The notes below the pieces were generated by a model that had not been told where the DNA came from, ran no database searches, and saw only the letters and a program-made list of their open reading frames with translations. A DNA stretch of 55,537 nucleotides from the NCBI GenBank assembly GCA_027030245.1, contig JALVFE010000037.1, positions 1 through 55,537 of the forward strand, written 5' to 3'. Positions 28,780 through 55,142 of this stretch are shown piece by piece. Source of the stretch: Melioribacteraceae bacterium. Lineage in GTDB: Bacteria; Bacteroidota; Ignavibacteria; Ignavibacteriales; Melioribacteraceae. Position 1 is the stretch's first letter; the number at the start of each line of letters is the position of its first letter. The translations under genes and the position numbers were made by a program.

Positions 28780-29736
28780 TTAATCCAAAGGACTTCTAAC
28801 GCCAAAGCCGCCTTTGTTAATTACGTGAGTGTAAATCATTGTGGTTCTAACAGATTTATGTCCCAAAAGTTCTTGTACGGTACGGATATCGTAGCCGTCT
28901 TGTAAGAGGTGCGTTGCAAAAGAGTGGCGAAAAACCTGAGGGGAAATATGTTTATTTATTCCGCTTTTTTTAGAAGCCGTTTTAACCTTTCTTTGAATTG
29001 TGGAGGAATAAATATGATGACGGTAAAGCTGGCCGGTTTTTTCATCCTTTGCAAATATTTTTGACGGAAAGACATATTGCCAAGCAAACTCTTTATTAGC
29101 ATTGGGATATTTTTCAGCAAGTGCATAAGGAAGAGTGGTTTTGCCGAATCCCTTTGAAAGGTCTTGCTTGTGCAAGTTTTTAACTTTTTTAATTTGATTT
29201 TTGATTAACGGGATTATTTTTTCGGGCAGAACGGTAAATCTGTCTTTTGCGCCTTTTCCGTCTCGCACCAGGATTTGTTTATACTCAAAATCGATATCCT
29301 TTACGCGTAGTCTCAGAGCTTCAGAAAGTCGAAGTCCGGAGCCGTAAAGCAAAGAGCACACAATATATTCCACGCCTGTAATATGGTTAAGAACGGTCTT
29401 TACTTCGTGTTTGGAAAGAACGACGGGAGCGGATTTTTTATATTTGGCGCGTTCAATTTGATCGATTTTCCCAATATCCTTGCGTAGAATTTCTTTGTAG
29501 AGAAAAATTAACGCATTTAGAGCTTGATTTTGAGTGGATGGAGCAACATGTTTTTTTACGGCAAGAAAGTTAAGAAAATTGCGTATTTCTTTTACTCCCA
29601 AATCATTCGGATGTTTTTTATTGTAAAAATAAATATAACGAAGTATCCAGTTTACGTAAAGTTTTTCTGTATTAGGGCTATAATGTTTTACCCGCAATTT
29701 ATTTCTAACCGATTGAATAAGTTTTGATTTAGCCAA
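28780..29736 (-). CDS. intI: Integron integrase (tyrosine recombinase)
   Basis: This 318-residue recombinase is an integron integrase and not a phage or Xer type. It carries the IntI-specific insertion at about residues 193-225 (LPYALAEKYPNANKEFAWQY then VFPS), followed by RHH and the GGFGVRSPLD C-terminus. Catalytic residues are R136 (GLRLSEA), K161, R270 (FRHSFATHLL), H293 (LLGHKS) and nucleophile Y302 (IYTHV). The usual His of the HxxR box is Gln (Q267-V-F-R270). The start is a TTG at 29736; no ATG is available upstream. It reads away from the cassettes on its right, the usual integron arrangement, and would catalyse their insertion at attI and their excision. Confidence 0.93.
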   Translation of the reverse strand: MAKSKLIQSVRNKLRVKHYSPNTEKLYVNWILRYIYFYNKKHPNDLGVKEIRNFLNFLAVKKHVAPSTQNQALNALIFLYKEILRKDIGKIDQIERAKYKKSAPVVLSKHEVKTVLNHITGVEYIVCSLLYGSGLRLSEALRLRVKDIDFEYKQILVRDGKGAKDRFTVLPEKIIPLIKNQIKKVKNLHKQDLSKGFGKTTLPYALAEKYPNANKEFAWQYVFPSKIFAKDEKTGQLYRHHIYSSTIQRKVKTASKKSGINKHISPQVFRHSFATHLLQDGYDIRTVQELLGHKSVRTTMIYTHVINKGGFGVRSPLD

Positions 29737-40803: not shown

Positions 40804-43053
40804 ATGTTAAAAAAATCTCATGCTACAATGTTCGGCATAGTATTTTTCTTACTGTTTACTATGCTCGGACAATTGTCAGCTCAACAGACTCTTGAGGATG
40901 TAAAGAAGGCACGCGGCCTAGACGATAACGACGTTTTGGCTGCAGTGAAAACCTTTATGCCGCGAGGGGGTCGCGACGAATACTTCGCTTTCGTCGGAAC
41001 CGGTAATTCCGGAACAATGATTGTTTACGGAATTCCATCGATGCGTATCTACAAATACGTTGGTGTATTTTCACCCGAGCCGTGGCAAGGATACGGTTAT
41101 GACGACGAAAGTATGCTTATGTTAAAGAAGGGTTCCTTCGATGATCGCATTTACAGCTATGGCGATATGAGATATCCCGCACTTTCCGAAACTAACGGCG
41201 AATATAACGGAAAATATCTCTTTTATTCGGACGGAGCTAATTCCCGTATCGCAATGTTAGGATTGGACGATTTTGAAACCAAACAAGTTCTTCCCCATCC
41301 TTTATTCGTTAATTGCTTCCCAGGCGTTGCGGTTACCGAAAATACGGAATGGGTTATTCAAACAAGTCAATATCCCGCTCCTTGGGAAAACAAAACTGCC
41401 GATATTGAAAAAGAATTCGATTCTAAATTCAAATCCGGAGTAACCTTCTGGAAATTTGTGGATCCGAAAGAAGCTACAAGATCCGGTCATCATATCGGCC
41501 GTATGATTAAAGAAGAATCTTTTACCGTGGAATTGCCTCCTTTTACTCTCGACTATTTTGATACCGGTCGTAAAGGAAGCAAAAACATGGTTGTAGGTTT
41601 AGCTTCAAAAGACGGCAAAAATTATATCTATATTATTGATTATTCTAAACTGAAAGACAAAGTATCGTCACGATTTAACGAAACAAACATTGTTTCGACC
41701 AAAGACGCCGTAAGCGAGAAAGGGCTTGCAATGATAGAACTGCCCGAAGCGGCAAGAAAAGTTAAAGTTACACCCGACGGTAAATACTTTATTACCGCAA
41801 GCGACAATGCAATGGTATTCGACTTCGATAAAGTTGCATCCGCATTGGCCAACGGTACTTTCAACGGTAAAACCGCGGGAGATATTCCGTTAATCGATGC
41901 CGCATCGGTAATGAAAGGAAAAATCAATATTGGTAAAGATGCCATGGATTTGGCTTTCGATTACAGAGACGGCGTTGTTTATTCTTCGGCATATTCCGAT
42001 AAGAAAATTGTCCGTTGGAACTACAACGACATGAAAAAAGAAGGCGAATTAGCCTTAACTTTCAAACCGGGTCAATTGATGACACCGCAAGGCATGTCTG
42101 CCGCACCCCATTCAAATTATCTTGTTGCGGTTGATAAAGAAGGTTTATACGACCATTTCCCGAATGTGGGACCTGTAAGACCAAGTTTTCAACATTTAAT
42201 TGATATCTCGTCTGACAACATGAGAGATATTTACACAATGAGTTTGCCTCAAGCTAACATCTACGGTTCGGTTGCCGTTCTGAGAACTACAATCAAACCG
42301 ATTATCAGATACGCTTTAGGTACAAACACAAGAACCGGTGAAATTTCCGATTTCAAAACCGTTGCAGGTCAAGAAAAAGTTGAACGCCAAGGTAACAGGG
42401 TTCACGTATTCGGTACTTTGATCCGTTCGCACATCACACCGGAAATCGTGGAAGTTAACCAAGGTGATGTTGTAACATTCCACTTAACAAACCTTGAGAG
42501 AGCGGAAGACGAAACCCACGGTTTTACTATCAACACTTATGGTAAACACGGAAGTTTTGAGCCGGGTAAAACCGCTTCGCTTACATTCGTGGCAGACCGT
42601 GCGGGAGCCTTCCCATACTACTGTACCGAATTCTGTTCGGCTCTTCACTTGGAAATGGAAGGTATTCTTCTTGTTAAACCTAAAAACTGGAAAGGTAAAG
42701 TTGAAAAAGAAGTTGCTTTAACAAAAGAAGAATTGGCTCAATACAAAAAACAATATGAGAAGAAAGTTGAAGTAATCAAACAAACCGGCGACGTAATTAA
42801 CGGCGTGGTTAAATTCTTAAAAGAAAACGATTACGCTAAATATCCTTACGTTAAAGCACTTGTAGAGGATGCCGTAGATCAATTGGAAAAAGGAAAATTT
42901 GCTAAAGAGAACTATGAAAAATATGCAAAAGAAGGCAAATGGAAAGATGCTTTCTTATGGGCAGAACAGTATTGGCAATACCAAGTTAAAGCCGCCGATG
43001 TTGGACTGCGTGCTAAGACACTATTAGAAGAGAAATTACAAGGAGGCAAATAA
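40804..43053 (+). CDS. NosZ paralogue A: CuA kept, CuZ ligands all lost
   Basis: This 749-residue protein has a Sec/SPI signal (LSAQQT) and aligns end to end with the next gene and with nitrous oxide reductases: an N-terminal seven-bladed propeller and a C-terminal cupredoxin domain. The cupredoxin CuA site is intact, with H572 (ETHGF), C607 and C611 (YYCTEFCSALH), H615 and M618. At the seven positions that bind the CuZ cluster the residues are R123, Y124, F172, R318, D382, Q424 and Y487, so no CuZ can form. The reading frame is open throughout and conserved away from these sites, so it is not a decaying pseudogene. A Lys/Glu-rich helical tail of about 120 residues follows the cupredoxin domain. 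The probable role is the electron-entry subunit of a heteromeric N2O reductase. It overlaps the next gene by one base. Confidence 0.9.
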   Translation: MLKKSHATMFGIVFFLLFTMLGQLSAQQTLEDVKKARGLDDNDVLAAVKTFMPRGGRDEYFAFVGTGNSGTMIVYGIPSMRIYKYVGVFSPEPWQGYGYDDESMLMLKKGSFDDRIYSYGDMRYPALSETNGEYNGKYLFYSDGANSRIAMLGLDDFETKQVLPHPLFVNCFPGVAVTENTEWVIQTSQYPAPWENKTADIEKEFDSKFKSGVTFWKFVDPKEATRSGHHIGRMIKEESFTVELPPFTLDYFDTGRKGSKNMVVGLASKDGKNYIYIIDYSKLKDKVSSRFNETNIVSTKDAVSEKGLAMIELPEAARKVKVTPDGKYFITASDNAMVFDFDKVASALANGTFNGKTAGDIPLIDAASVMKGKINIGKDAMDLAFDYRDGVVYSSAYSDKKIVRWNYNDMKKEGELALTFKPGQLMTPQGMSAAPHSNYLVAVDKEGLYDHFPNVGPVRPSFQHLIDISSDNMRDIYTMSLPQANIYGSVAVLRTTIKPIIRYALGTNTRTGEISDFKTVAGQEKVERQGNRVHVFGTLIRSHITPEIVEVNQGDVVTFHLTNLERAEDETHGFTINTYGKHGSFEPGKTASLTFVADRAGAFPYYCTEFCSALHLEMEGILLVKPKNWKGKVEKEVALTKEELAQYKKQYEKKVEVIKQTGDVINGVVKFLKENDYAKYPYVKALVEDAVDQLEKGKFAKENYEKYAKEGKWKDAFLWAEQYWQYQVKAADVGLRAKTLLEEKLQGGK

Positions 43054-45452
43054 TGAAAAAGGTAAATAAATTAATACGGAAATCATTATTGGTTACTGCC
43101 ATCTTTGCTTTCTCTGCCTTGTTATTGGTTAATTGTGGAGGAGAAAAGAAATCCGGCGCGGCCGGTTTAAACGGTGCACCGTTCGGAGACGAATCTTTCG
43201 GCGACGTGGTTAAAAGAAGAGGTCTGAATGCTCAAGACGTATTAGCCGCAGTTAAAACATATACACCTGATAAAATCGAAGACGAATATGTTTCACTTAA
43301 CTCCGGCGGTCAGGCAGGTAACATGCCTATGTATACCGTGCCTTCGATGAGAATGATTAAATACGTTCCCACCGCAGCCAGACAACCATACAATGGTTAT
43401 GGCTATAGCGTGGAAACCAAAAAATTAATGGAAAAAGGATTCATCGACGGTGAAGAAATCCTTTGGGGTGATACTCACCATCCGGGATTCTCCGAAACCG
43501 ACGGTTTGTATAACGGTAAATGGGCTGCTATTAATGACAAAGCCAATCCCAGAATTTATATTGTTAGCTTAAAAGACTGGGAATTAAAACAAATCGTTCA
43601 GAATCCAATTTTCCGTTGCGACCACGGCGGTTGTTTCTTTACCCCGAATTCAGAATACATCATGGAAGCCGCTCAATATCCGGCTCCTTATGATAGAAAA
43701 TACCATCCGCTTACGGAAGCAACATTCGAAAAATATTGGAGAGGCGGTCTGACTTATTGGAAATTCAATAACGAAACCGGTAAAGTCGACGAAAAGAATT
43801 CGTTTACTTTCGAATTTCCACCTTATACACAAGACTTAAGCGATGCCGGTAAAAACGCAAGCTACGGTTGGGGTTTCACAAACTCATTCTGTTCCGAAAT
43901 GTATTTCGGAGGAATCGAAAGAGGACGCCCGCCGTTTGAAGCAGGTTGTTCTTCCAAAGATACCGACTATTTGCACGTAACCAATTGGAAGAAAGCAGCG
44001 GCATTAATCAAAGCCGGTAAAATTAAAATCAAAAAGGTTCGTGATCACATTGTTATTCCGATTGAAAGTGCAGTTAAACACGGATTGCTTTATTTAATCC
44101 CCGAACCTAAATCTCCTCACGGCGTGGATGTTGATCCTACGGGAGATTACATCATCGTTGCAGGTAAATTGGATTCCCATGCGTGGGTATATTCGTTCAA
44201 GAAAATTATGGACGCCATCAAAAACAAAAAATTTGAAGGCACCGACAAATTCGGTATTCCGATTATTGCATTGGAAGATGCATTGCACGGAAGCGTGGAA
44301 GTCGGTTTAGGTCCTCTGCACAATCAATACGATGATGAAAAAGGTATCGTATACACATCCATTTACGTTGATTCCCGTGTAACCAAATGGGATTATTTGA
44401 ATCTGAAAGTGTTGGATTATGTAAGTTCACATTATAATATCGGACACTTGGTTTCCGCTCACGGCGATACTAAAAAACCGCATGGAAAATATTTGATTTC
44501 GTTGGATAAACTTTCAATCGACAGATTTAATCCCGTCGGACCTTTGCATCCGCAAAACCATCAATTAATTGATATCGACGCACCAAAAATGAGAATCATA
44601 TATGATTTGCCATTACCGATGGGCGAACCGCATTACACTGCTTTAATCAGCATAAAAGATTACAAATCCGTCGATAAATATCCGGTCGGTACCGATATTA
44701 CAACCGGTAAAAAATCCAAATACTTTACTGCTCTTGGCAAAGAAAGAGTTGTAAACAGAGGTAAAACGGTTGAAGTTTTCGGTACAATAAATAATGGCAA
44801 AGTTACTCCCGGTAACATTAACGTTAACCAGGGACAAAAAGTTATTATTCATCTAACAAACCACGGACAAACAAAACTCGATCACTACGTTTACGAAGTT
44901 GCGGCTAACGATGCAATGTACAGATGGAGACCGGGTGAAACCGCAACTATCGAGTTCGTTGCAGAAAAAGCCGGTATGTTCCCGTTGTTGTTGGATGAAA
45001 TTCACAGCCCGGAAAACCGTCAACTTCAAGGGTATCTGGCTGTTAAGTTCAATCAAGAAGCCGAAAATGCACGCTTGTTAGCTTACTCTAAACGGGTTCA
45101 AGCAGATATGCAGATGCAAGCATTCAAACCTTCTGCAATTGAAATTAAGAACTTGTTACCTGGAGAAATGGAATTCCTGAACTATGGATGTAACGCATGC
45201 CATAAATTCGGTACCGAATTTAACGGACCCGATTTGCTGATGGTTGACAAGCGCAGAGACGACAAATGGCTGAAATCGTGGATACTTAATCCCGAAAAAC
45301 ATTACAGCGAACCGGATATAGAAGCAATGCGACAGAAATATAAACTCGCAATGCCTAATCAAAATGTTTCGGAAAAGGATGTTGGCAAAATTATTCAATA
45401 CTTGAAAGCTAAATCCGAAGCTGTAATGAAAGAGATGACAAATAAAAAATAA
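43053..45452 (+). CDS. nosZ: NosZ paralogue B: CuZ kept, CuA lost, cytochrome c fusion
   Basis: This 799-residue protein reads as a clade II nitrous oxide reductase catalytic subunit. All seven CuZ histidines are present: H142 and H143 (GDTHHPG), H191 (RCDHGG), H356 (SPHGVD), H423 (GPLHNQ), H465 (IGHLVSAHGDT) and H527 (GEPHYT). In the cupredoxin domain the CuA residues are L647, H651, N655 and L658 in place of Cys, Cys, His and Met, in an ungapped alignment with subunit A; only H611 remains. The C-terminus has a cytochrome c domain with C713-x-x-C716-H717 and probable axial M767. The signal ends in LLVNC (C28), a lipobox with an unusual Asn before Cys, so it is probably membrane-anchored. AGGAGG at 43041 inside the upstream gene and the TAATG overlap imply coupled translation with A. 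Confidence 0.92.
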   Translation: MKKVNKLIRKSLLVTAIFAFSALLLVNCGGEKKSGAAGLNGAPFGDESFGDVVKRRGLNAQDVLAAVKTYTPDKIEDEYVSLNSGGQAGNMPMYTVPSMRMIKYVPTAARQPYNGYGYSVETKKLMEKGFIDGEEILWGDTHHPGFSETDGLYNGKWAAINDKANPRIYIVSLKDWELKQIVQNPIFRCDHGGCFFTPNSEYIMEAAQYPAPYDRKYHPLTEATFEKYWRGGLTYWKFNNETGKVDEKNSFTFEFPPYTQDLSDAGKNASYGWGFTNSFCSEMYFGGIERGRPPFEAGCSSKDTDYLHVTNWKKAAALIKAGKIKIKKVRDHIVIPIESAVKHGLLYLIPEPKSPHGVDVDPTGDYIIVAGKLDSHAWVYSFKKIMDAIKNKKFEGTDKFGIPIIALEDALHGSVEVGLGPLHNQYDDEKGIVYTSIYVDSRVTKWDYLNLKVLDYVSSHYNIGHLVSAHGDTKKPHGKYLISLDKLSIDRFNPVGPLHPQNHQLIDIDAPKMRIIYDLPLPMGEPHYTALISIKDYKSVDKYPVGTDITTGKKSKYFTALGKERVVNRGKTVEVFGTINNGKVTPGNINVNQGQKVIIHLTNHGQTKLDHYVYEVAANDAMYRWRPGETATIEFVAEKAGMFPLLLDEIHSPENRQLQGYLAVKFNQEAENARLLAYSKRVQADMQMQAFKPSAIEIKNLLPGEMEFLNYGCNACHKFGTEFNGPDLLMVDKRRDDKWLKSWILNPEKHYSEPDIEAMRQKYKLAMPNQNVSEKDVGKIIQYLKAKSEAVMKEMTNKK

Positions 45453-45572: not shown

Positions 45573-45974
45573 ATGAAAAAAATACTCACCAGCATTGTAG
45601 TTGTTTTTATCTCTATCACTTTTATTGTTAACTGCGGCGGAGAGAAAAAAGCTCCGACTAAAGAAGCTCCCGCCAAAAAGGAAGTTAAAAAAGTAGCCGA
45701 TTTGGCAAACGGAGAGAAAGTTTTTAATAAAGTCTGTGTCGCTTGCCATCTTACCGGTGTTGCCGGCGCTCCTGCGGTAACCGATAAGGCAAGATGGGAA
45801 GAAAATGCGGCAAAAGGTTTCGACGTTTTATATAAAAGCGTTTTGAACGGTGTGCCGAAAGGTAAATACGGCGTTATGCCTCCACGCGGAACTTGTACCG
45901 ATTGTTCCGACAAAGACCTTTACGATGCGGTACATTTTATTTTGAAAAAAGCAGGAGTAACAGCCAAAGAATAG
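45573..45974 (+). CDS. Monoheme cytochrome c lipoprotein (NosC-like)
   Basis: This 133-residue protein has a signal with the lipobox FIVNC (C21), the same VNCGGEKK start as nosZ-B, then a Lys/Pro/Ala linker. The cytochrome c domain has C55-x-x-C58-H59 and axial Met in YGVMPPRG (M102), and a CTDC pair near the C-terminus typical of cytochrome c5-like proteins. It is a probable periplasmic electron donor for the N2O reductase, carrying electrons from the quinol side. It is 31 bases upstream of nosB. Confidence 0.85.
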   Translation: MKKILTSIVVVFISITFIVNCGGEKKAPTKEAPAKKEVKKVADLANGEKVFNKVCVACHLTGVAGAPAVTDKARWEENAAKGFDVLYKSVLNGVPKGKYGVMPPRGTCTDCSDKDLYDAVHFILKKAGVTAKE

Positions 45975-46005: not shown

Positions 46006-46764
46006 ATGGGAAATGCAAAGAATAGGATTTACCAGGTTTTAGCGATTTTGGGTATTATACTTTTATTCGTAACATTTTATTCCCCTATTTGGTCTGTTGC
46101 GTTACAAAGTATTCAGTATCCCAAAACAATGTATCCCGAAGGTATTAAAATTTATTTTACCTACGACGGTGTTTACAACGGCTGTAAAGGTGTAAAAGAA
46201 AGAGAAGAATTAGCCGAGGATGTGGGCGCTGATTGTTTGATTGAAATGAATAAAATCAATCACTTTATCGGAATGTACCCCATAGTTCAAGGCGTTAACG
46301 ATGTGAATGAAATCGGTGAACACGTTCCATATCCGGTTTACGCAGCGGAAAAAATTCCACCCGAAGAAATTCCGCAAGCTCTCAAGATTCTCGATTTTAT
46401 TCTCAGACATTCTTTCTACCTTTTCGTGATTTTTGCAATTATGGTAATGATTTTTGCTTTTACAACCAAGAAAACACTTTCTTGGGCAGCTATTATTCCG
46501 TCTTTAATTCCTTTTTACTTTCTGGCTGTTTACACTTATTATTTGTATTGGTACGGTCATAATTTGGGATTACACGGAGGCGGAGCATTCGGCGGAATTA
46601 AACCGTTTATGCCTACTGTTTTCGGTGAAGGTAAAGTAGCACAGTTTACAACCGAATCTTATCCGTCTTACGGATTCTTTTTGGCTGTACTTACATTTTT
46701 AGTATTAATATTTGCGGTTTTACTTAAACGCAAATCACTGAAGGAAAGTGAAAGTAAAGCGTAA
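46006..46764 (+). CDS. nosB: NosB, membrane protein of clade II nos clusters
   Basis: This 252-residue protein has an N-terminal membrane helix, a periplasmic domain with MNKINHFIGMYPIV, and three more helices after residue 130 including a His/Gly-rich loop (YGHNLGLHGGGAFGG). This arrangement and position between nosZ and nosD match NosB, an integral membrane protein found only in clade II clusters. Its exact role in electron transfer or maturation is not settled. Confidence 0.82.
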   Translation: MGNAKNRIYQVLAILGIILLFVTFYSPIWSVALQSIQYPKTMYPEGIKIYFTYDGVYNGCKGVKEREELAEDVGADCLIEMNKINHFIGMYPIVQGVNDVNEIGEHVPYPVYAAEKIPPEEIPQALKILDFILRHSFYLFVIFAIMVMIFAFTTKKTLSWAAIIPSLIPFYFLAVYTYYLYWYGHNLGLHGGGAFGGIKPFMPTVFGEGKVAQFTTESYPSYGFFLAVLTFLVLIFAVLLKRKSLKESESKA

Positions 46765-46824: not shown

Positions 46825-48165
46825 TTGAAAAAGTCTATAGACAAGATTCCAAGTAACCGTTTCTATTCATTAAAAAAAATTTTAATAGAATTCCTTTTCC
46901 TTACTCTGTTTTTTTCACCCATTTTATCCTTACATTCGCAAAACAATGAACCCGGCACACTTTATTCCTTCGATAACATAACCGTTGATACGGCAAATGC
47001 TATTCCCCTTCAACCGATTATTGACAAAGCTTTGCCCGGTGATACGGTTTTGCTTAAACCGGGATTTTATACCGGTCCGGTTACAATTACCAAAAACAAT
47101 ATTACCATAGACGGACAAGGTAAGTCCGTTATTTCCGGTTTAAATAAAAGATCGGTTATTTATATAAAAAGCGACAGCAATAATATTTTAAACTTAAAGA
47201 TAATTCAATCCGGCCGTTCACACGACCAGATAGATTGCGGAATTTCCATTCGCGGAAATTTTAATACAGTAAAAAATTGCAGAATAGAAGATTGTCTTTT
47301 CGGCTTGGATATTCAAAATGCACACCTTAATAAAATTTTACACTGTGAAATTTCTTCAAAGCTCGATAGAAATCTTGCATTTAAAGGTGATGCAATAAGA
47401 TTATGGTATTCTAAAAACAATCTAGTTAAGCATAACTATTGGCATCACGTAAGAGATATGGTTGTTTGGTACTCAGCTGAAAACATTTTTGAAGAAAACA
47501 AAGGAATAGGAAACCGTTACAGCATACATTTTATGTATTCGCACAATAACAAAATTTTGAACAACGAGTTTTACAAAAATTCCGTCGGTATCTTTTTAAT
47601 GTACAGCGAAAAAACTTTGATGGTTGGTAATACGATTATGCAATCAAACGGTACGAGCGGTATGTGCTTGGGAATGAAAGAAACTTCTTCTAACCAGATT
47701 TTGAACAATAGATTTATTTATTCTGCAATTGGAATTTATGTTGACGTTTCTCCCTTCGTTCCTTCGAAAATGAACACGATAGAAAACAACGAAATCGCTT
47801 TTTGTGGAATGGGTGTAAAGTTTCTTTCCAACCAAGAAGGAAATCTTTTTAAACATAACTATTTTCATGATAATCTTGCCCAAGTTACCGTTGAAGCTAA
47901 AACGGCAAACCGTAACAAATGGATTAACAATTATTTTGATGATTATCAAGGATTTGATAGAGACGGGGATAACCTCGGAGATACTCCATACCGCTTATTT
48001 TCCTATGTTGAACATTTATGGGATTTTAACGAGAACGTTAGATTTTTCTACGGTGCTCCTATTCTTGTTATTTTGGATTTTCTTGAAAGATTAGCACCGT
48101 TTTCTTCACCTAAGTTTATTCTTGAAGATAAAAAGCCGCTGTTTCATTGGGTCGGTGAATTATAG
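46825..48165 (+). CDS. nosD: NosD, periplasmic copper-site maturation protein
   Basis: This 446-residue protein has a signal peptide (FFSPILSLHSQ) and a right-handed beta-helix of CASH/NosD repeats (NNITIDGQGKSVISG, and repeated NKILNNEFYKNS-type coils). NosD with the ABC transporter NosFY supplies sulfur and copper handling for the CuZ cluster. The start is a TTG at 46825; no ATG fits the signal peptide. Confidence 0.9.
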   Translation: MKKSIDKIPSNRFYSLKKILIEFLFLTLFFSPILSLHSQNNEPGTLYSFDNITVDTANAIPLQPIIDKALPGDTVLLKPGFYTGPVTITKNNITIDGQGKSVISGLNKRSVIYIKSDSNNILNLKIIQSGRSHDQIDCGISIRGNFNTVKNCRIEDCLFGLDIQNAHLNKILHCEISSKLDRNLAFKGDAIRLWYSKNNLVKHNYWHHVRDMVVWYSAENIFEENKGIGNRYSIHFMYSHNNKILNNEFYKNSVGIFLMYSEKTLMVGNTIMQSNGTSGMCLGMKETSSNQILNNRFIYSAIGIYVDVSPFVPSKMNTIENNEIAFCGMGVKFLSNQEGNLFKHNYFHDNLAQVTVEAKTANRNKWINNYFDDYQGFDRDGDNLGDTPYRLFSYVEHLWDFNENVRFFYGAPILVILDFLERLAPFSSPKFILEDKKPLFHWVGEL

Positions 48166-48292: not shown

Positions 48293-49144
48293 ATGGCAAA
48301 AGAAAACAAAACAAACATTAACAGGCGACAGTTCTTAAAATCCACCGCGGTAGCAACCGCAAGTATGGTTGCAATAGGTGCGGGAGTTTCTTTTATTCAA
48401 AAATACAAGCACGACGAAAACGACGGCAAACAACTATTACGCCCGCCGGGTGCAATAGAAGAAGATGCTTTCCTTTATGCTTGTATTAAATGTGGTCTGT
48501 GCGTGCAAATATGCCCTATTCATGCCATAAAATTAGCCGGAATAAACGAGAACCTTTCGTACGGAACTCCGTATATCAATGCCCGCGAGCAAGCATGCGA
48601 TTTTTCGTGCGACTCTATTCAGTGTGCCGAAACATGTCCTACAGCCGCCTTGTATTTTGTCCAATTTAAGGAAGCCGGATTAAAAGCAATTGAAGAAGTG
48701 CAAAAACAAGGACCCGAAGCGTTAAAAAATATAAATCCGTTTAAGGTGCAAGTTGTTGCCATGAAAAAGGTAACCAGAATCGGTGTGGCAAAATTAAACG
48801 AAAAAACTTGCCTTTCGGTAAAAGGTAAAGGATTTTCTGGAACACCACGGGGAAAAGATTTCAAAGGGGTTTTAAGACCTCAATCAAAAGAATCGAGAAA
48901 AGCGTATCCGCTTAGAGAACAAAATTATGAAAGAGAGATTTGCGACTTATGCGTAACAGAGTGCCCTATAGGCGAAGAAGCAATAAAACTTGAAAAGAAC
49001 GTTAATGCCGATGGAACTGTCAGTTATAAACCCAAAGTATTGGAAGGTTGCACCGGCTGCGGTGTATGCGAAATGATTTGTCCTACAGAACCGGCAAGCA
49101 TTGTTATTGAAGCCGGAAAGAAGTATGAGGAGGTTTACTCATGA
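48293..49144 (+). CDS. nosG: NosG, Tat-exported ferredoxin-type protein
   Basis: This 283-residue protein has a twin-arginine signal (NRRQFLKSTAVATA) and four cysteine clusters for [4Fe-4S] centres: CIKCGLCVQICP, CDSIQCAETCP (with an upstream Cys), CDLCVTECP and CTGCGVCEMICP. It resembles NapG. With NosH it should pass electrons from menaquinol to the periplasmic N2O reductase system. Its stop overlaps the nosH start (ATGA). Confidence 0.9.
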   Translation: MAKENKTNINRRQFLKSTAVATASMVAIGAGVSFIQKYKHDENDGKQLLRPPGAIEEDAFLYACIKCGLCVQICPIHAIKLAGINENLSYGTPYINAREQACDFSCDSIQCAETCPTAALYFVQFKEAGLKAIEEVQKQGPEALKNINPFKVQVVAMKKVTRIGVAKLNEKTCLSVKGKGFSGTPRGKDFKGVLRPQSKESRKAYPLREQNYEREICDLCVTECPIGEEAIKLEKNVNADGTVSYKPKVLEGCTGCGVCEMICPTEPASIVIEAGKKYEEVYS

Positions 49145-50076
49145 AACTATTCGGCAAAAAATCAGAACCGCTTCCTCCTAAAAAAAACGAGGATATGCCT
49201 CACAGTAAATTGGGGATGCCGTATAAAGATTGGATGGGCTTAAACGAAAACAGACACAAATGGAGAAACAGAAGATGGGCTTTTTTAATTTTTATTAATC
49301 TCCTTTTCGTTGTGTCTTTTGCTCTCGACCTTTCCCTACTTGAGGGTTCCCTCAGCGGTTCAAGATTATTGGGCTTTTACTTACTCGACCCTTATAACTC
49401 ATTTCAGCTCTTGGCTATTTCCGTTAGGACCGAATATTTGCCTTACCTTACAATGAATTTTGTTATCGGATTTTTCACTATTGTTATTTTTTATGCGATA
49501 ATGGGCGGAAGGTCTTTCTGTTCCTGGGTATGCCCGTATCATTTCTTAGCGGAATGGGCGGAAAAGCTCCACGATTACTTGGTTAAAAAGAAAAAAATAA
49601 AAGAGCATTCGTTCCAGCGCGGTTTACGTTATGTGTTTTGGGCAGGATTTATTATCTTGGCATTTGCAACGGAAAGATTAGTTTTCGAAACACTTAATCC
49701 TGTCGGAATTCTTTCGCGGGCAATGATTTACGGTCCCGGTCTAATTTTACTTTGGGTTTTGGTAATTATTGCTTTCGAAATCGTGTACAGTAAAAGATTT
49801 TGGTGCCGCTATGTTTGTCCAATAGGTGCAACATGGAGTATCATCGGCAATATTTCTCCCGTTGCAGTAAAATTTGAATTGGATAAATGCGGCCATTGCA
49901 GAAAATGCCAAGATGTTTGCCTTGTACCGCACGAATTGTGGTTTGTTACACGCGGGAAAGCAACGCAGGAAAAACATTATGTCGGCTCCGATTGTACGCG
50001 CTGCGGGTATTGCGTTGATGTTTGCCCCGGTGACGCTTTGAATTTCACAGTAAAAGGATTAGATAAAATTTTATGA
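49141..50076 (+). CDS. nosH: NosH, membrane quinol dehydrogenase
   Basis: This 311-residue NapH-like protein has four membrane helices, two CxxxCP motifs (CSWVCPYHF and CRYVCPIGA) and two [4Fe-4S] clusters (CGHCRKCQDVC and CTRCGYCVDVCP). It is the membrane partner of NosG and oxidises menaquinol. It overlaps nosG and nosF by four bases each. Confidence 0.9.
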   Translation: MKLFGKKSEPLPPKKNEDMPHSKLGMPYKDWMGLNENRHKWRNRRWAFLIFINLLFVVSFALDLSLLEGSLSGSRLLGFYLLDPYNSFQLLAISVRTEYLPYLTMNFVIGFFTIVIFYAIMGGRSFCSWVCPYHFLAEWAEKLHDYLVKKKKIKEHSFQRGLRYVFWAGFIILAFATERLVFETLNPVGILSRAMIYGPGLILLWVLVIIAFEIVYSKRFWCRYVCPIGATWSIIGNISPVAVKFELDKCGHCRKCQDVCLVPHELWFVTRGKATQEKHYVGSDCTRCGYCVDVCPGDALNFTVKGLDKIL

Positions 50077-50966
50077 CGGAAAATAAATTACATAACGGCG
50101 TTTTAATAGATATTAAGCATCTTTCAAAATCGTTTAAGAAAATTAAAGTAATCGACGATTTAACAATTTCGTTTTCCCAAAACGAAAGAGTTGCCCTTAT
50201 TGGTCAGAACGGAGCGGGGAAAACTACTCTGATAAGATGCATTTTGGGTCAATATGTCTACGACGGTGAGCTTAGTGTGTTCGGAATGAATCCGCGAACC
50301 GACAGGGAAGAAATACTTAAAAGCGTCGGATTCGTGCCTCAACTTCCTCCGCCTCTTAAAATGACGGTTAAAGAAATTCTCGACTTCTTTTCCGGTTTAA
50401 CCGGAACCGATAAAAAAGAATTTATACAAATCAGTGAAGATTTGGGATTATCTATCGAAAACAATCTGTCGAAACCTTTTCTCAAACTTTCGGGAGGGAT
50501 GAAACAAAAACTTTTGGTTTCCCTGGCTCTGGGAAGAAAACCGAAAGTAATTTTGATGGACGAGCCGTCCGCAAATTTGGACCCGCAAGCAAGAGAAATA
50601 TTTTTTCAATATTTGAATAATGTAAGTAAAGATACTTTAATGATCCTAAGCAGTCACCGGATGAATGAAATATCCACACTCGTTACAAGAATTGTGGAAA
50701 TGGATTTGGGCAAAGTTACGTTAGACGAACATCTTGTTATTTCGGCAAGTCCGGAAAACAAATTTTCTTACAAAATTGTTTTCAAAGAAATTAACGACGA
50801 TCTAAGAAATATTCTGAACGATTGGAAATTCACCGCAGTAAACGGCAATTTTACATGGGAATCAGAAATTAATGAAAGCGATAATGCGAAATTCTTAAAT
50901 ATAATCTCACATTTTTCCGCCGTTATAAAAGATATGAAAGTAGAGAAACTGGAGGCCGGACAATGA
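50073..50966 (+). CDS. nosF: NosF, ABC transporter ATPase
   Basis: This 297-residue ATPase has Walker A GQNGAGKTT, signature LSGGMKQK and Walker B VILMDEPSANLD. It powers NosY and acts with NosD in CuZ assembly. The gene is in the classical nosFLY arrangement with four-base overlaps on both sides. Confidence 0.92.
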   Translation: MTENKLHNGVLIDIKHLSKSFKKIKVIDDLTISFSQNERVALIGQNGAGKTTLIRCILGQYVYDGELSVFGMNPRTDREEILKSVGFVPQLPPPLKMTVKEILDFFSGLTGTDKKEFIQISEDLGLSIENNLSKPFLKLSGGMKQKLLVSLALGRKPKVILMDEPSANLDPQAREIFFQYLNNVSKDTLMILSSHRMNEISTLVTRIVEMDLGKVTLDEHLVISASPENKFSYKIVFKEINDDLRNILNDWKFTAVNGNFTWESEINESDNAKFLNIISHFSAVIKDMKVEKLEAGQ

Positions 50967-51448
50967 AAAGAAAATTAATTCCTTTATTTTTAGTCTTTTT
51001 GTTTGCATGTTCATCCGGACCGGATTATTCACCGAGAAAAATCAATTTCGATCGTGATGTTTGTGCAATGTGCAAAATGGGATTGACGGATCAAAAATAT
51101 TCCGTTCAAGCAATTAACAACTACGGTGAAGTCTTATGGTTCGACGATATCGGATGCTTGGTTGAAATGATGAAAACAGACAAATGGAAAAACTTTGCCA
51201 AAGATTCGGTTAAAATATGGATTGGCGATGCCGAAACCGGCAAATGGATTGACGCCACCAAAGCTTATTACCGTTTCGGAGATAGAACTCCGATGGGCTA
51301 CGGTTACGGTGCTTTGGAAAATAAAACAGCAGATTCTCTGTTTACTTTCGATGAAACCGTTAAACGCATTGAAGAAGGTGAAACCATGCGCGAAGAATTT
51401 TTGAAAGAACATAAAATGATGAAACACGGAGACAAAGGGAAACAGTAA
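50963..51448 (+). CDS. nosL: NosL, copper chaperone lipoprotein
   Basis: This 161-residue lipoprotein (lipobox LFAC) has the NosL copper motif C34-A-M36-C37-K-M39 and a YYRFGDRTPMGYGYGAL segment typical of the family. NosL delivers Cu(I) for N2O reductase maturation through NosDFY. The C-terminus is His/Met/Lys-rich (EHKMMKHGDKGK), which may also bind copper. Confidence 0.9.
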   Translation: MKRKLIPLFLVFLFACSSGPDYSPRKINFDRDVCAMCKMGLTDQKYSVQAINNYGEVLWFDDIGCLVEMMKTDKWKNFAKDSVKIWIGDAETGKWIDATKAYYRFGDRTPMGYGYGALENKTADSLFTFDETVKRIEEGETMREEFLKEHKMMKHGDKGKQ

Positions 51449-51451
51449 AAT

Positions 51452-52282
51452 ATGAAAAACGGATTAACTCAAATAGCTGTTTTGGATATTAAACAAAATT
51501 TACGCTCCAAATGGTTTTGGAGCTACAGTCTTCTGTTCGGCGGATTTGTTGCCGTAATGTTTGCCCTCGGAATAACCGAATCCCAAATTATCGGATTCGT
51601 TGGGCTAAGCAGACTTATGGTAACGTTTATGCAAATAAGCATGGCAATACTGCCGATATTCGTGTTAATATCAACCGTACGTTCGGTTGTCGGAGACCGT
51701 GAATCAAACGTTATGGAATACATGCTGTCATTACCCGTTTCCCTTTCCGGTTACTTTTGGGGAAAACTTCTCGGGCGTTTCGTAGTTATTTTCGTACCGG
51801 TATTTTTAGCTTTGTTCGGTGCTACAATTTGGGCAAGCATAACAAAAATTGATGTTCCGTGGAATATGTTCGCCGTTTACAGTTTTCAACTTGCCGCAAT
51901 GGTAATTTGTTTTTTGGGAATGAGCATGTTTATTTCGACCATTGCACGATCCCAAGAAATTGCCATCAGCGTGGCTTTTATCATTTGGCTCCTTTCCGTT
52001 GCATTTCTTGATTTAATTCTGATGGGCGTAATGTTGAAAGCGAGAATGAATCCCGATTTAATAATCGGAGTGGGAATGATAAATCCCTTGCAGGTTTTCC
52101 GTACCGGTGCGTTGGCTTTATTCGATCCCGAACTAACCGTAATGGGTCCCGCTTCTTATTATATTCTGGATACCGTATCGCGTCCCGTATTCATTATCTT
52201 CTCGATTTTATATCCGGTTTTGCTTGGCGGACTTTTAGCATATTGGGGAAACAAGTATTTTAATAACAACGATATTTTATAA
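51452..52282 (+). CDS. nosY: NosY, ABC transporter permease
   Basis: This 276-residue protein has six predicted membrane helices and the RSVVGDRESNVMEYMLSLPV segment characteristic of NosY and related ABC-2 permeases. It forms the NosDFY complex. The stop and the next start overlap (TAATG). Confidence 0.92.
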   Translation: MKNGLTQIAVLDIKQNLRSKWFWSYSLLFGGFVAVMFALGITESQIIGFVGLSRLMVTFMQISMAILPIFVLISTVRSVVGDRESNVMEYMLSLPVSLSGYFWGKLLGRFVVIFVPVFLALFGATIWASITKIDVPWNMFAVYSFQLAAMVICFLGMSMFISTIARSQEIAISVAFIIWLLSVAFLDLILMGVMLKARMNPDLIIGVGMINPLQVFRTGALALFDPELTVMGPASYYILDTVSRPVFIIFSILYPVLLGGLLAYWGNKYFNNNDIL

Positions 52283-54656: not shown

Positions 54657-55142
54657 ATGGAAAGAATAATGAAATTTTTAAGAATCGTTTCAATATTTGC
54701 TTTGTTAACCTTATTGGCTTGTTCGGCTTCAGACAAAAACATCGAAAAAAAATTCAAAACTGTTGATGATATTACCGATGATATGATATGCGAAAGTTGC
54801 GGTAAAAATTTGATTAAAAATGTGTCCACTATTCACATTGTGGAAATGAATAACGGGGACGTACATAAATATTGTTCTTTAAATTGTTTGGCAAAAGATT
54901 GGAATAAACTTTCCGAAGATGTAAAAACAGTTTTGGTAATGGATGCCAAATTCAAAATATTCTTCCCGGCAAAAGATGCACATTATGTTATACGCGATAC
55001 TTTCGGAAGAAGCAAGAAAGAAACAACCGCTTACGCATATCAAAATCCCGAATACGCGCGGAGGTTTATGAAAGATTTTTGGGGAAGAGAAATAGTTTAT
55101 TTCCACGATGCTTTGGAAATTGTCTCTGGCAAAAAACTCTAA
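54657..55142 (+). CDS. Second NosL-like lipoprotein
   Basis: This 161-residue protein has a lipobox (LLAC, C22) and the layout of NosL. The metal motif is C45-E-S-C48 without the flanking Met residues of NosL, followed by HKYCSLNCLAKDW (C73, C77) and AHYVIRDTFGRSKKET, which matches the conserved NosL Tyr-Val segment. It is probably a divergent NosL paralogue with different metal affinity. Two starts are possible, at 54657 and 54669; the second has GGAAAG upstream. It is the last gene of the nos region. Confidence 0.7.
   Translation: MERIMKFLRIVSIFALLTLLACSASDKNIEKKFKTVDDITDDMICESCGKNLIKNVSTIHIVEMNNGDVHKYCSLNCLAKDWNKLSEDVKTVLVMDAKFKIFFPAKDAHYVIRDTFGRSKKETTAYAYQNPEYARRFMKDFWGREIVYFHDALEIVSGKKL

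Follow-up and report, generated by a model that had tools for sequence, protein, structure and literature searches.

Nitrous oxide is a greenhouse gas that bacteria remove with the enzyme nitrous oxide reductase, NosZ. In its known form this enzyme is a homodimer, and each chain houses both copper centres, CuA and CuZ (PubMed Central article PMC11573801). The locus described here raises the question of whether the same chemistry can be divided between two different chains. It lies in a stretch of 55,537 nucleotides (the window: positions 1 to 55,537, forward strand, of contig JALVFE010000037.1 in the Melioribacteraceae bacterium assembly GCA_027030245.1), in which two adjacent genes, A and B, encode NosZ paralogues that each retain one of the two centres. 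The answer that we hold with considerable confidence is that A and B are two subunits of one nitrous oxide reductase, with CuA of A feeding CuZ of B. The two genes and their parts are as follows.

40804..43053, + strand: gene A, NosZ paralogue with CuA intact and no CuZ, 749 residues, open frame
40975..42303, + strand: A propeller, about residues 58-500; CuZ ligands replaced by R123, Y124, F172, R318, D382, Q424 and Y487
42397..42678, + strand: A cupredoxin, about residues 532-625; CuA ligands H572, C607, C611, H615 and M618
42724..43047, + strand: A C-terminal helical tail, three helices, residues 641-748 in the predicted model
43053..45452, + strand: gene B, NosZ paralogue with seven CuZ His, no CuA and a C-terminal cytochrome c, 799 residues, open frame
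43134..43136, + strand: B Cys28, lipoprotein-type Cys ending the leader (LVNC)
43281..44651, + strand: B propeller, about residues 77-533; H142, H143, H191, H356, H423, H465 and H527
44766..45047, + strand: B cupredoxin without CuA ligands, about residues 572-665; Y612, L647, H651, N655 and L658
45165..45449, + strand: B cytochrome c domain (Pfam Cytochrom_C); CNACH at residues 713-717 (45189-45203)

Both frames are open and meet in a TAATG junction (43051-43055), one base of which is common to the stop codon of A and the start codon of B, as a sequence-only reading of this DNA had described. That reading had also named the non-ligand residues at all seven CuZ positions of A, the five CuA ligands kept by the same chain, the seven CuZ histidines of B and the residues L647, H651, N655 and L658 at CuA positions of B. 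All of these assignments recur in an alignment of 177 NosZ-like frames, which adds Y612 of B at the position of the first CuA His; the haem-c domain and the lipoprotein-type leader of B, and the nos-type genes downstream, were absent from that reading. Both proteins match solved nitrous oxide reductases by sequence. Against TIGR04246 (Sec-dependent nitrous-oxide reductase, equivalog cut-off 625 bits), B scores 664.6 and A 469.8 bits, and 3 of 50 pair-bearing genomes examined contain no match above this cut-off. The scores against NF052460, the clade III lactonase-type NosZ, are 89.0 (A) and 101.5 bits (B), a weak similarity that falls far short of the cut-off of 700.

The alignment comprises 42 ordinary NosZ, 67 A and 57 B sequences that are complete at the ligand positions, plus incomplete rows. 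Every one of the 42 ordinary rows has the seven CuZ His and the five CuA ligands in a single chain. All 67 A proteins carry the H, C, C, H and M of CuA and none the seven CuZ His; all 57 B proteins carry the seven CuZ His and none the CuA ligand set; no ligand-complete A or B carries both centres. The split is therefore real and conserved, without exception in the 67 A and 57 B, and it is not attributable to chance, because the same pattern occurs in every ligand-complete A and B examined. The incomplete rows (4 A and 6 B) fit it as far as they extend, and L040 is an incomplete ordinary row. Neither chain alone fits the definition of a one-chain NosZ, and the pair fits all of its ligand requirements. 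The CuZ columns of A contain, in order, R (65) or W (2), F/Y, F/Y (with one H), a variable residue, D (67), a variable residue and Y (67); the CuA columns of B contain Y (57), L/I/F/V, H/N/other, G/K/other, and L (56) or Q (1). The earlier proposal that every ligand had been lost from the opposite domain of each copy is correct for A and B of the window but does not extend to the whole family, where 13 of the 67 A proteins keep one CuZ His (11 at the sixth position, one at the third and one at the fourth), and none keeps more.

Two of the former CuZ positions of A are occupied by Arg (R123; 65/67) and Asp (D382; 67/67), which perhaps form a salt bridge filling the metal cavity. Beside the lost CuA His of B stands H611-Y612 (window 44883-44888), a His in 56 of 57 sequences followed by a Tyr in all 57. 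A substitute copper site in the B cupredoxin was considered and rejected: H651 is His in 28 and H604 in 23 of the 57, only H611 is near-constant (56/57), and no conserved ligand set is therefore seen.

The remainder of each protein mirrors the loss of ligands. Mean pairwise identity in the propeller and cupredoxin is 0.635 and 0.909, respectively, for A, 0.771 and 0.664 for B, and 0.756 and 0.764 for 32 ordinary rows from the family and order; the cupredoxin of A is thus the most conserved part of the pair. The cupredoxin is more similar than the propeller in 100% of the A-A comparisons and 3% of the B-B comparisons, compared with 56% in the ordinary rows and 93% in ten Betaproteobacteria. Ordinary NosZ has 136 propeller and 32 cupredoxin columns with a constancy of 95% or more; A retains 43 and 28 of these, respectively, and B 103 and 11. 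In quick domain trees of 36 rows, the branch leading to each group (both halves being summed where the drawn root cuts it) measures 1.70 for A and 0.49 for B in the propeller, and 0.29 for A and 2.38 for B in the cupredoxin. A quick tree of 57 rows, of which 20 are A and 20 are B, sets each of the two groups apart from all other rows by a branch with support 100; their placement among the ordinary groups is unsure, because the branches are long and the root is a midpoint root. The A and B distances correlate with r = 0.86 in a mirror-tree comparison, which we do not use as evidence of contact, because linked genes would give such a value anyway. Ratios of non-synonymous to synonymous change (dN/dS, Nei-Gojobori) were estimated for seven pairs of close relatives, in three domains of A and of B; 41 of the 42 comparisons gave 0.00-0.13 and one was undefined, ratios that are rough because several dS values exceed 1. 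All domains of A and B look strongly constrained, and the low ratios indicate that the domains that lost copper are nevertheless maintained.

If the two chains meet as NosZ chains do, the residues of their interface should be informative. In the solved enzyme, each active site combines the CuA of one chain with the CuZ of its partner, the link between them being made by F617 of the cupredoxin and E488 and K450 of the propeller; Phe617 controls access to the CuZ of the partner chain, and the Ca2+ loop of blade IV touches the partner's cupredoxin (PMC11573801). As mapped by our alignment, the E488 column is Asn in all 67 A and Glu in all 57 B, the window residues being N485 of A and E525 of B. 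The F617 column is Phe in all 67 A (F610 in the window) and in B is Gln (24), Ile (15), Val (8), Tyr (7), Met (2) or Phe (1). The Ca2+ clamp loop is deleted from the A propeller of the window, and from all 67 A, and is kept in the B propeller of the window; at the D274 column all 57 B have Asp and none of the 67 A does. By sequence, then, the residues that would couple the two centres survive almost only on the A cupredoxin and the B propeller, and the sole predicted contact with both sides essentially intact is that of the A cupredoxin on the B propeller. From these residues and the mirror-image conservation we infer, in agreement with the sequence-only reading, a heterodimer in which CuA of A meets CuZ of B. 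AlphaFold models of the two chains have mean predicted local distance difference test (pLDDT) values of 81.5 (A) and 80.1 (B) and a predicted template modelling score of 0.72 each; among the matches listed for the two models, all 50 are solved NosZ. The strands of the B cupredoxin are retained in its model.

B differs from A also at its ends. CxxCH occurs in all 57 B frames longer than 700 residues (48 with one and 9 with two) and in none of 71 A. An MP motif follows 30-95 residues past CxxCH in 55 of the 57 ligand-complete B, the candidate axial Met of the window protein being M767 (in AMPNQ); L096, one of the two B proteins without the motif, ends before its haem. The B proteins of L064, L071, L072, L078, L081, L082, L084, L086 and L109 are about 900 residues long, have a second CxxCH and probably carry two haems. 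A Cys follows the hydrophobic stretch of the leader, by a loose pattern, in all 64 B and in 3 of 71 A; a stricter lipoprotein-leader pattern finds 40 of 57 B and none of 71 A, and a third pattern matches all 27 B leaders that could be cut out, among 64 B. The three flagged A leaders (L057, L068 and L110), in which the Cys lies within the hydrophobic stretch and ahead of AMAQQ or ALAQQ, are read as ordinary Sec leaders; the window A leader, read by eye, is also Sec-type. B would accordingly be expected to carry a lipid anchor, judging from these leader patterns.

An ordinary NosZ elsewhere in the window genome had been named beforehand as evidence that would refute the proposal; a search of this genome (3.8 Mb, 97.7% complete) found none, A and B being its only NosZ. 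A third match to the NosZ profile, tried as a second ordinary NosZ, lies on another contig, spans only profile positions 502-576 and looks like a cupredoxin/COX2 protein. The pair does occur in related genomes, recurring in the genus, in the family and across groups of Bacteroidota. One of the three other genomes of the genus has the pair (G003), another has one ordinary NosZ (G001) and the third has neither (G002). The family (79 genomes) includes three with the pair (G000, G003 and G047) and 31 others with another match above the cut-off, which in one of them (G043) is incomplete. The order (164 genomes) contains the same three A proteins and a fourth match (G085), an ordinary NosZ by its ligands; this locus (L125, G085:C156) has one internal TAA. 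The pair was found in 1 of 395 genomes of a phylum sample, namely the window's own, where at most two first-look candidates were scored per genome, in the genomes listed. It was found in 2 of 296 genomes of the order of G188, one being G188 itself; in G569, a new genome from that sample, A adjoins a frame with CuZ His. Given 1 of 395 and 2 of 296, the pair is uncommon, and its absence from many close relatives is real. The patchy occurrence (3/79 in the family and 3/164 in the order) suggests transfer or replacement, not decay. Base composition gives no signal of recent transfer, the G+C of the nos region (0.36-0.41) lying inside the range of the remaining window (0.31-0.41). Carriage on plasmids was likewise rejected: 139 plasmid records match A, all at less than 60% identity, and each of the five matches listed is annotated nosZ.

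A wide scan, with the three A proteins as queries, covered 84,980 species genomes and yielded 296 relatives, the best 80 of which were kept; as it used two exact peptide patterns and this best 80, its counts are lower bounds. Seventy of the 80 loci (L042-L111) encode A-type proteins, all from uncultured genomes labelled Melioribacteraceae, Bacteroidales, Lentimicrobiaceae, Flavobacteriales, Flavobacteriaceae, Saprospiraceae, Lutibacter, Polaribacter, Chlorobiota and Cloacimonetes; L042 and L043 are apparently the loci of G003 and G047, and L080 and L081 come from one metagenome-assembled genome (MAG). The remaining ten (L112-L121), from Azoarcus, Thauera, Azonexus and other Betaproteobacteria, are ordinary NosZ at 43-45% identity. 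With the window included there are 71 A loci; in 64 of them the gene immediately after A, on the same strand, is B, and the other 7 lie at contig ends; the gaps are mostly -1 to 50 bases, with outliers of -50 and 100 (start codons chosen by us). In 50 of the 69 listed pair-bearing genomes we sought an ordinary NosZ at E <= 1e-40, and 48 were without one, with the proviso that MAGs can miss genes. One A and one B occur in 46 of the 50; G200 has one pair, its A being matched as two pieces of a single open frame, and G196 has two. The latter is the Lutibacter MAG SZUA-1414 (L080 and L081). The two genomes that also hold an ordinary NosZ (G188 and G189, with pairs L071 and L072 and ordinary NosZ L126 and L127) are Flavobacteriaceae/Flavobacteriia MAGs and would make useful internal controls.

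We propose that the two genes stem from a single duplication of a clade II (Sec-type) NosZ and that each copy would then have degenerated in the opposite half. A and B would assemble head to tail as in the NosZ homodimer, with one of the two domain contacts alive, that of the CuA cupredoxin of A on the CuZ propeller of B; the reverse contact, of the copper-free B cupredoxin on the A propeller without CuZ, would be structural. B would be tethered to the membrane as a lipoprotein. Electrons would pass from menaquinol through the NosG/H-like proteins, cytochromes c and the haem of B to CuA of A, and from there across to CuZ of B, where N2O would be reduced; the place of the B haem in this route is a guess by analogy with cNosZ, the NosZ of the Wolinella type. 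Physical pairing and N2O reduction are what we infer from the sequences, by which the pair very likely works like NosZ; A and B very probably work only as a pair. The fuller statement, that the pair is an obligate heterodimeric N2O reductase derived from one ancient duplication with complete reciprocal loss of copper centres, that many uncultured Bacteroidota and relatives have no other N2O reductase, and that each dimer contains a single CuA-CuZ site, which a haem of the CuZ subunit feeds, we regard as probable.

Several observations weigh against this proposal. K450, near CuZ, is also kept in the A propeller (67/67), and E260 of the Ca2+ loop is Glu in 41 but Met in 16 of the 57 B, so that the division is imperfect at some interface residues. 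The A model fits solved NosZ worse (template modelling score by target 0.63-0.67, root-mean-square deviation 7.5-8.2, in the 50 matches listed) than the B model does (0.82-0.87 and 3.7-4.6, likewise in 50), and its pLDDT falls below 50 at residues 612-617, inside the CuA loop. Every further pair locus comes from an uncultured genome, and 2 of the 50 pair genomes (G188 and G189) also hold an ordinary NosZ with all ligands present. Homologues of NapG, NapH and NosF were not found within many Bacteroidales loci. Finally, as B has a haem of its own, reduction of CuZ without A is conceivable.

This last point underlies the live but less likely rival, which we consider unlikely: a B-B homodimer would be the whole enzyme, with haem c in place of CuA feeding CuZ, and A would be a separate soluble CuA carrier or dispensable. 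The constancy of CxxCH in B and of the MP motif after it would suit such an enzyme, as would the fused cytochrome c of the known cNosZ (PMC8139620). However, no part of the pair is better conserved than the A cupredoxin, which keeps the Phe617 that governs access to a partner's CuZ; the A propeller is still NosZ-like and constrained, and B follows every A whose contig runs on, in a survey that did not search for B without A. A second possibility, to which we give little weight, is that A binds B but mainly serves its assembly, through copper loading or as a scaffold, CuA of A not being a catalytic carrier. Cupredoxin-like proteins do take part in copper-site maturation in other systems, but the five CuA ligands and the conduit Phe are invariant in all 67 A. 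It is still less probable that the pair reduces another small substrate or a sulfur species: the members found are uncultured and no activity of any was found in print, but B has its seven CuZ His and most of the constant propeller columns (103/136), exceeds the NosZ cut-off (664.6 against 625 bits) and is followed by NosD and nos-type genes. Decay, or misassembly of two nosZ copies, deserves almost no credence, since the frames are open, dN/dS is well below 1 and the same strictly complementary pair recurs in MAGs of many differently named assemblies, which supports the earlier judgement that random decay was unlikely.

The proposed A-B enzyme may be set beside the systems already described. 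Like the homodimeric NosZ of clades I and II, it has a two-domain fold, the same ligand sets over A and B together, and adjoining NosD and nos-type genes; unlike them, it has one centre per chain. The known homodimer, with both centres in each chain, therefore has two sites per dimer, whereas one centre per chain predicts a single site per heterodimer. Wolinella-type cNosZ is reported with Sec export and a NosB/D/G/H/F/Y/L operon (PMC8139620). It resembles B in its C-terminal cytochrome c, and similar genes lie near the pair; it differs in being, as described there, a canonical enzyme variant with a fused cytochrome c, whereas B lacks CuA ligands and is paired with A. Among the best 80 of 296 relatives, the ordinary NosZ closest to A are those of the Azoarcus group, with all ligands in one chain in 10 of 10. 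A is 38% identical to them in the propeller and 72% in the cupredoxin, and B 60% and 33%; the helical tail of A resembles that of the single-chain NosZ of Azoarcus and Thauera (43% identity to the group). Similarity of their propeller to B, and of their cupredoxin and tail to A, is what common ancestry would predict. Two clade II nosZ genes were reported in 15 of 1,083 wastewater MAGs surveyed, and in none of these did the two copies lie within 45 genes of one another (PMC11409646), unlike the adjacent A-B pair. By a term search, CuA and CuZ are not named in the main text of a 2024 paper on aquatic nosZ (PMC11148229). No description of a split or heterodimeric NosZ was found among the open PubMed Central papers listed, judged by title and the start of the abstract, preprints and subscription journals being outside this scope.

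Copper centres on separate chains break the rule that both centres reside in one NosZ chain and offer a natural setting for handling electron entry separately from catalysis, by mutation, by copper loading and in other studies. The pair opens the way to half-site reactivity, to a direct test of electrons crossing the dimer interface and to the order of assembly, and it is a clear example from nature of gene duplicates with complementary losses. Since A and B both match nosZ models, surveys may count two nosZ copies, or may drop A for want of CuZ ligands.

The genes that follow the pair are of nos type:

45573..45974, + strand: small c-type cytochrome, 133 residues, lipoprotein-type leader by eye
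46006..46764, + strand: membrane protein, NosB-like by position; no family match
46825..48165, + strand: NosD (TIGR04247, above cut-off)
48293..49144, + strand: NapG/NosG-like ferredoxin; best matches below their cut-offs
49141..50076, + strand: NapH/NosH-like protein (TIGR02163, above cut-off)
50073..50966, + strand: ATP-binding cassette (ABC) ATPase, NosF by position; general ABC matches only
50963..51448, + strand: NosL-like lipoprotein, named by eye and position; no family match
51452..52282, + strand: ABC permease, NosY by eye and position; no family match

The labels NosF, NosL, NosY and NosB were assigned from sequence and position, with no specific family match. The 133-residue cytochrome c is likely an electron carrier, and the route from quinol through NosG/H and cytochromes c to CuA of A and CuZ of B would include such carriers. 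In loci long enough to be scored, homologues were found of the small cytochrome c (27/51), the membrane protein (45/45), NosD (39/40), NapG-like (25/38), NapH-like (20/38), NosF (17/38) and NosL (9/38), the later genes being undercounted as loci stop about 5 kb past B. The 13 loci without NapG within the locus are mostly from Bacteroidales, in which NosD has other genes after it. Beyond the nos-type genes, a second NosL-like lipoprotein with a CESCGK motif lies at window 54657-55142 (by eye), and upstream of the pair a tyrosine recombinase/integrase-like frame, also recognized by eye, occupies window 28780-29736 on the - strand.

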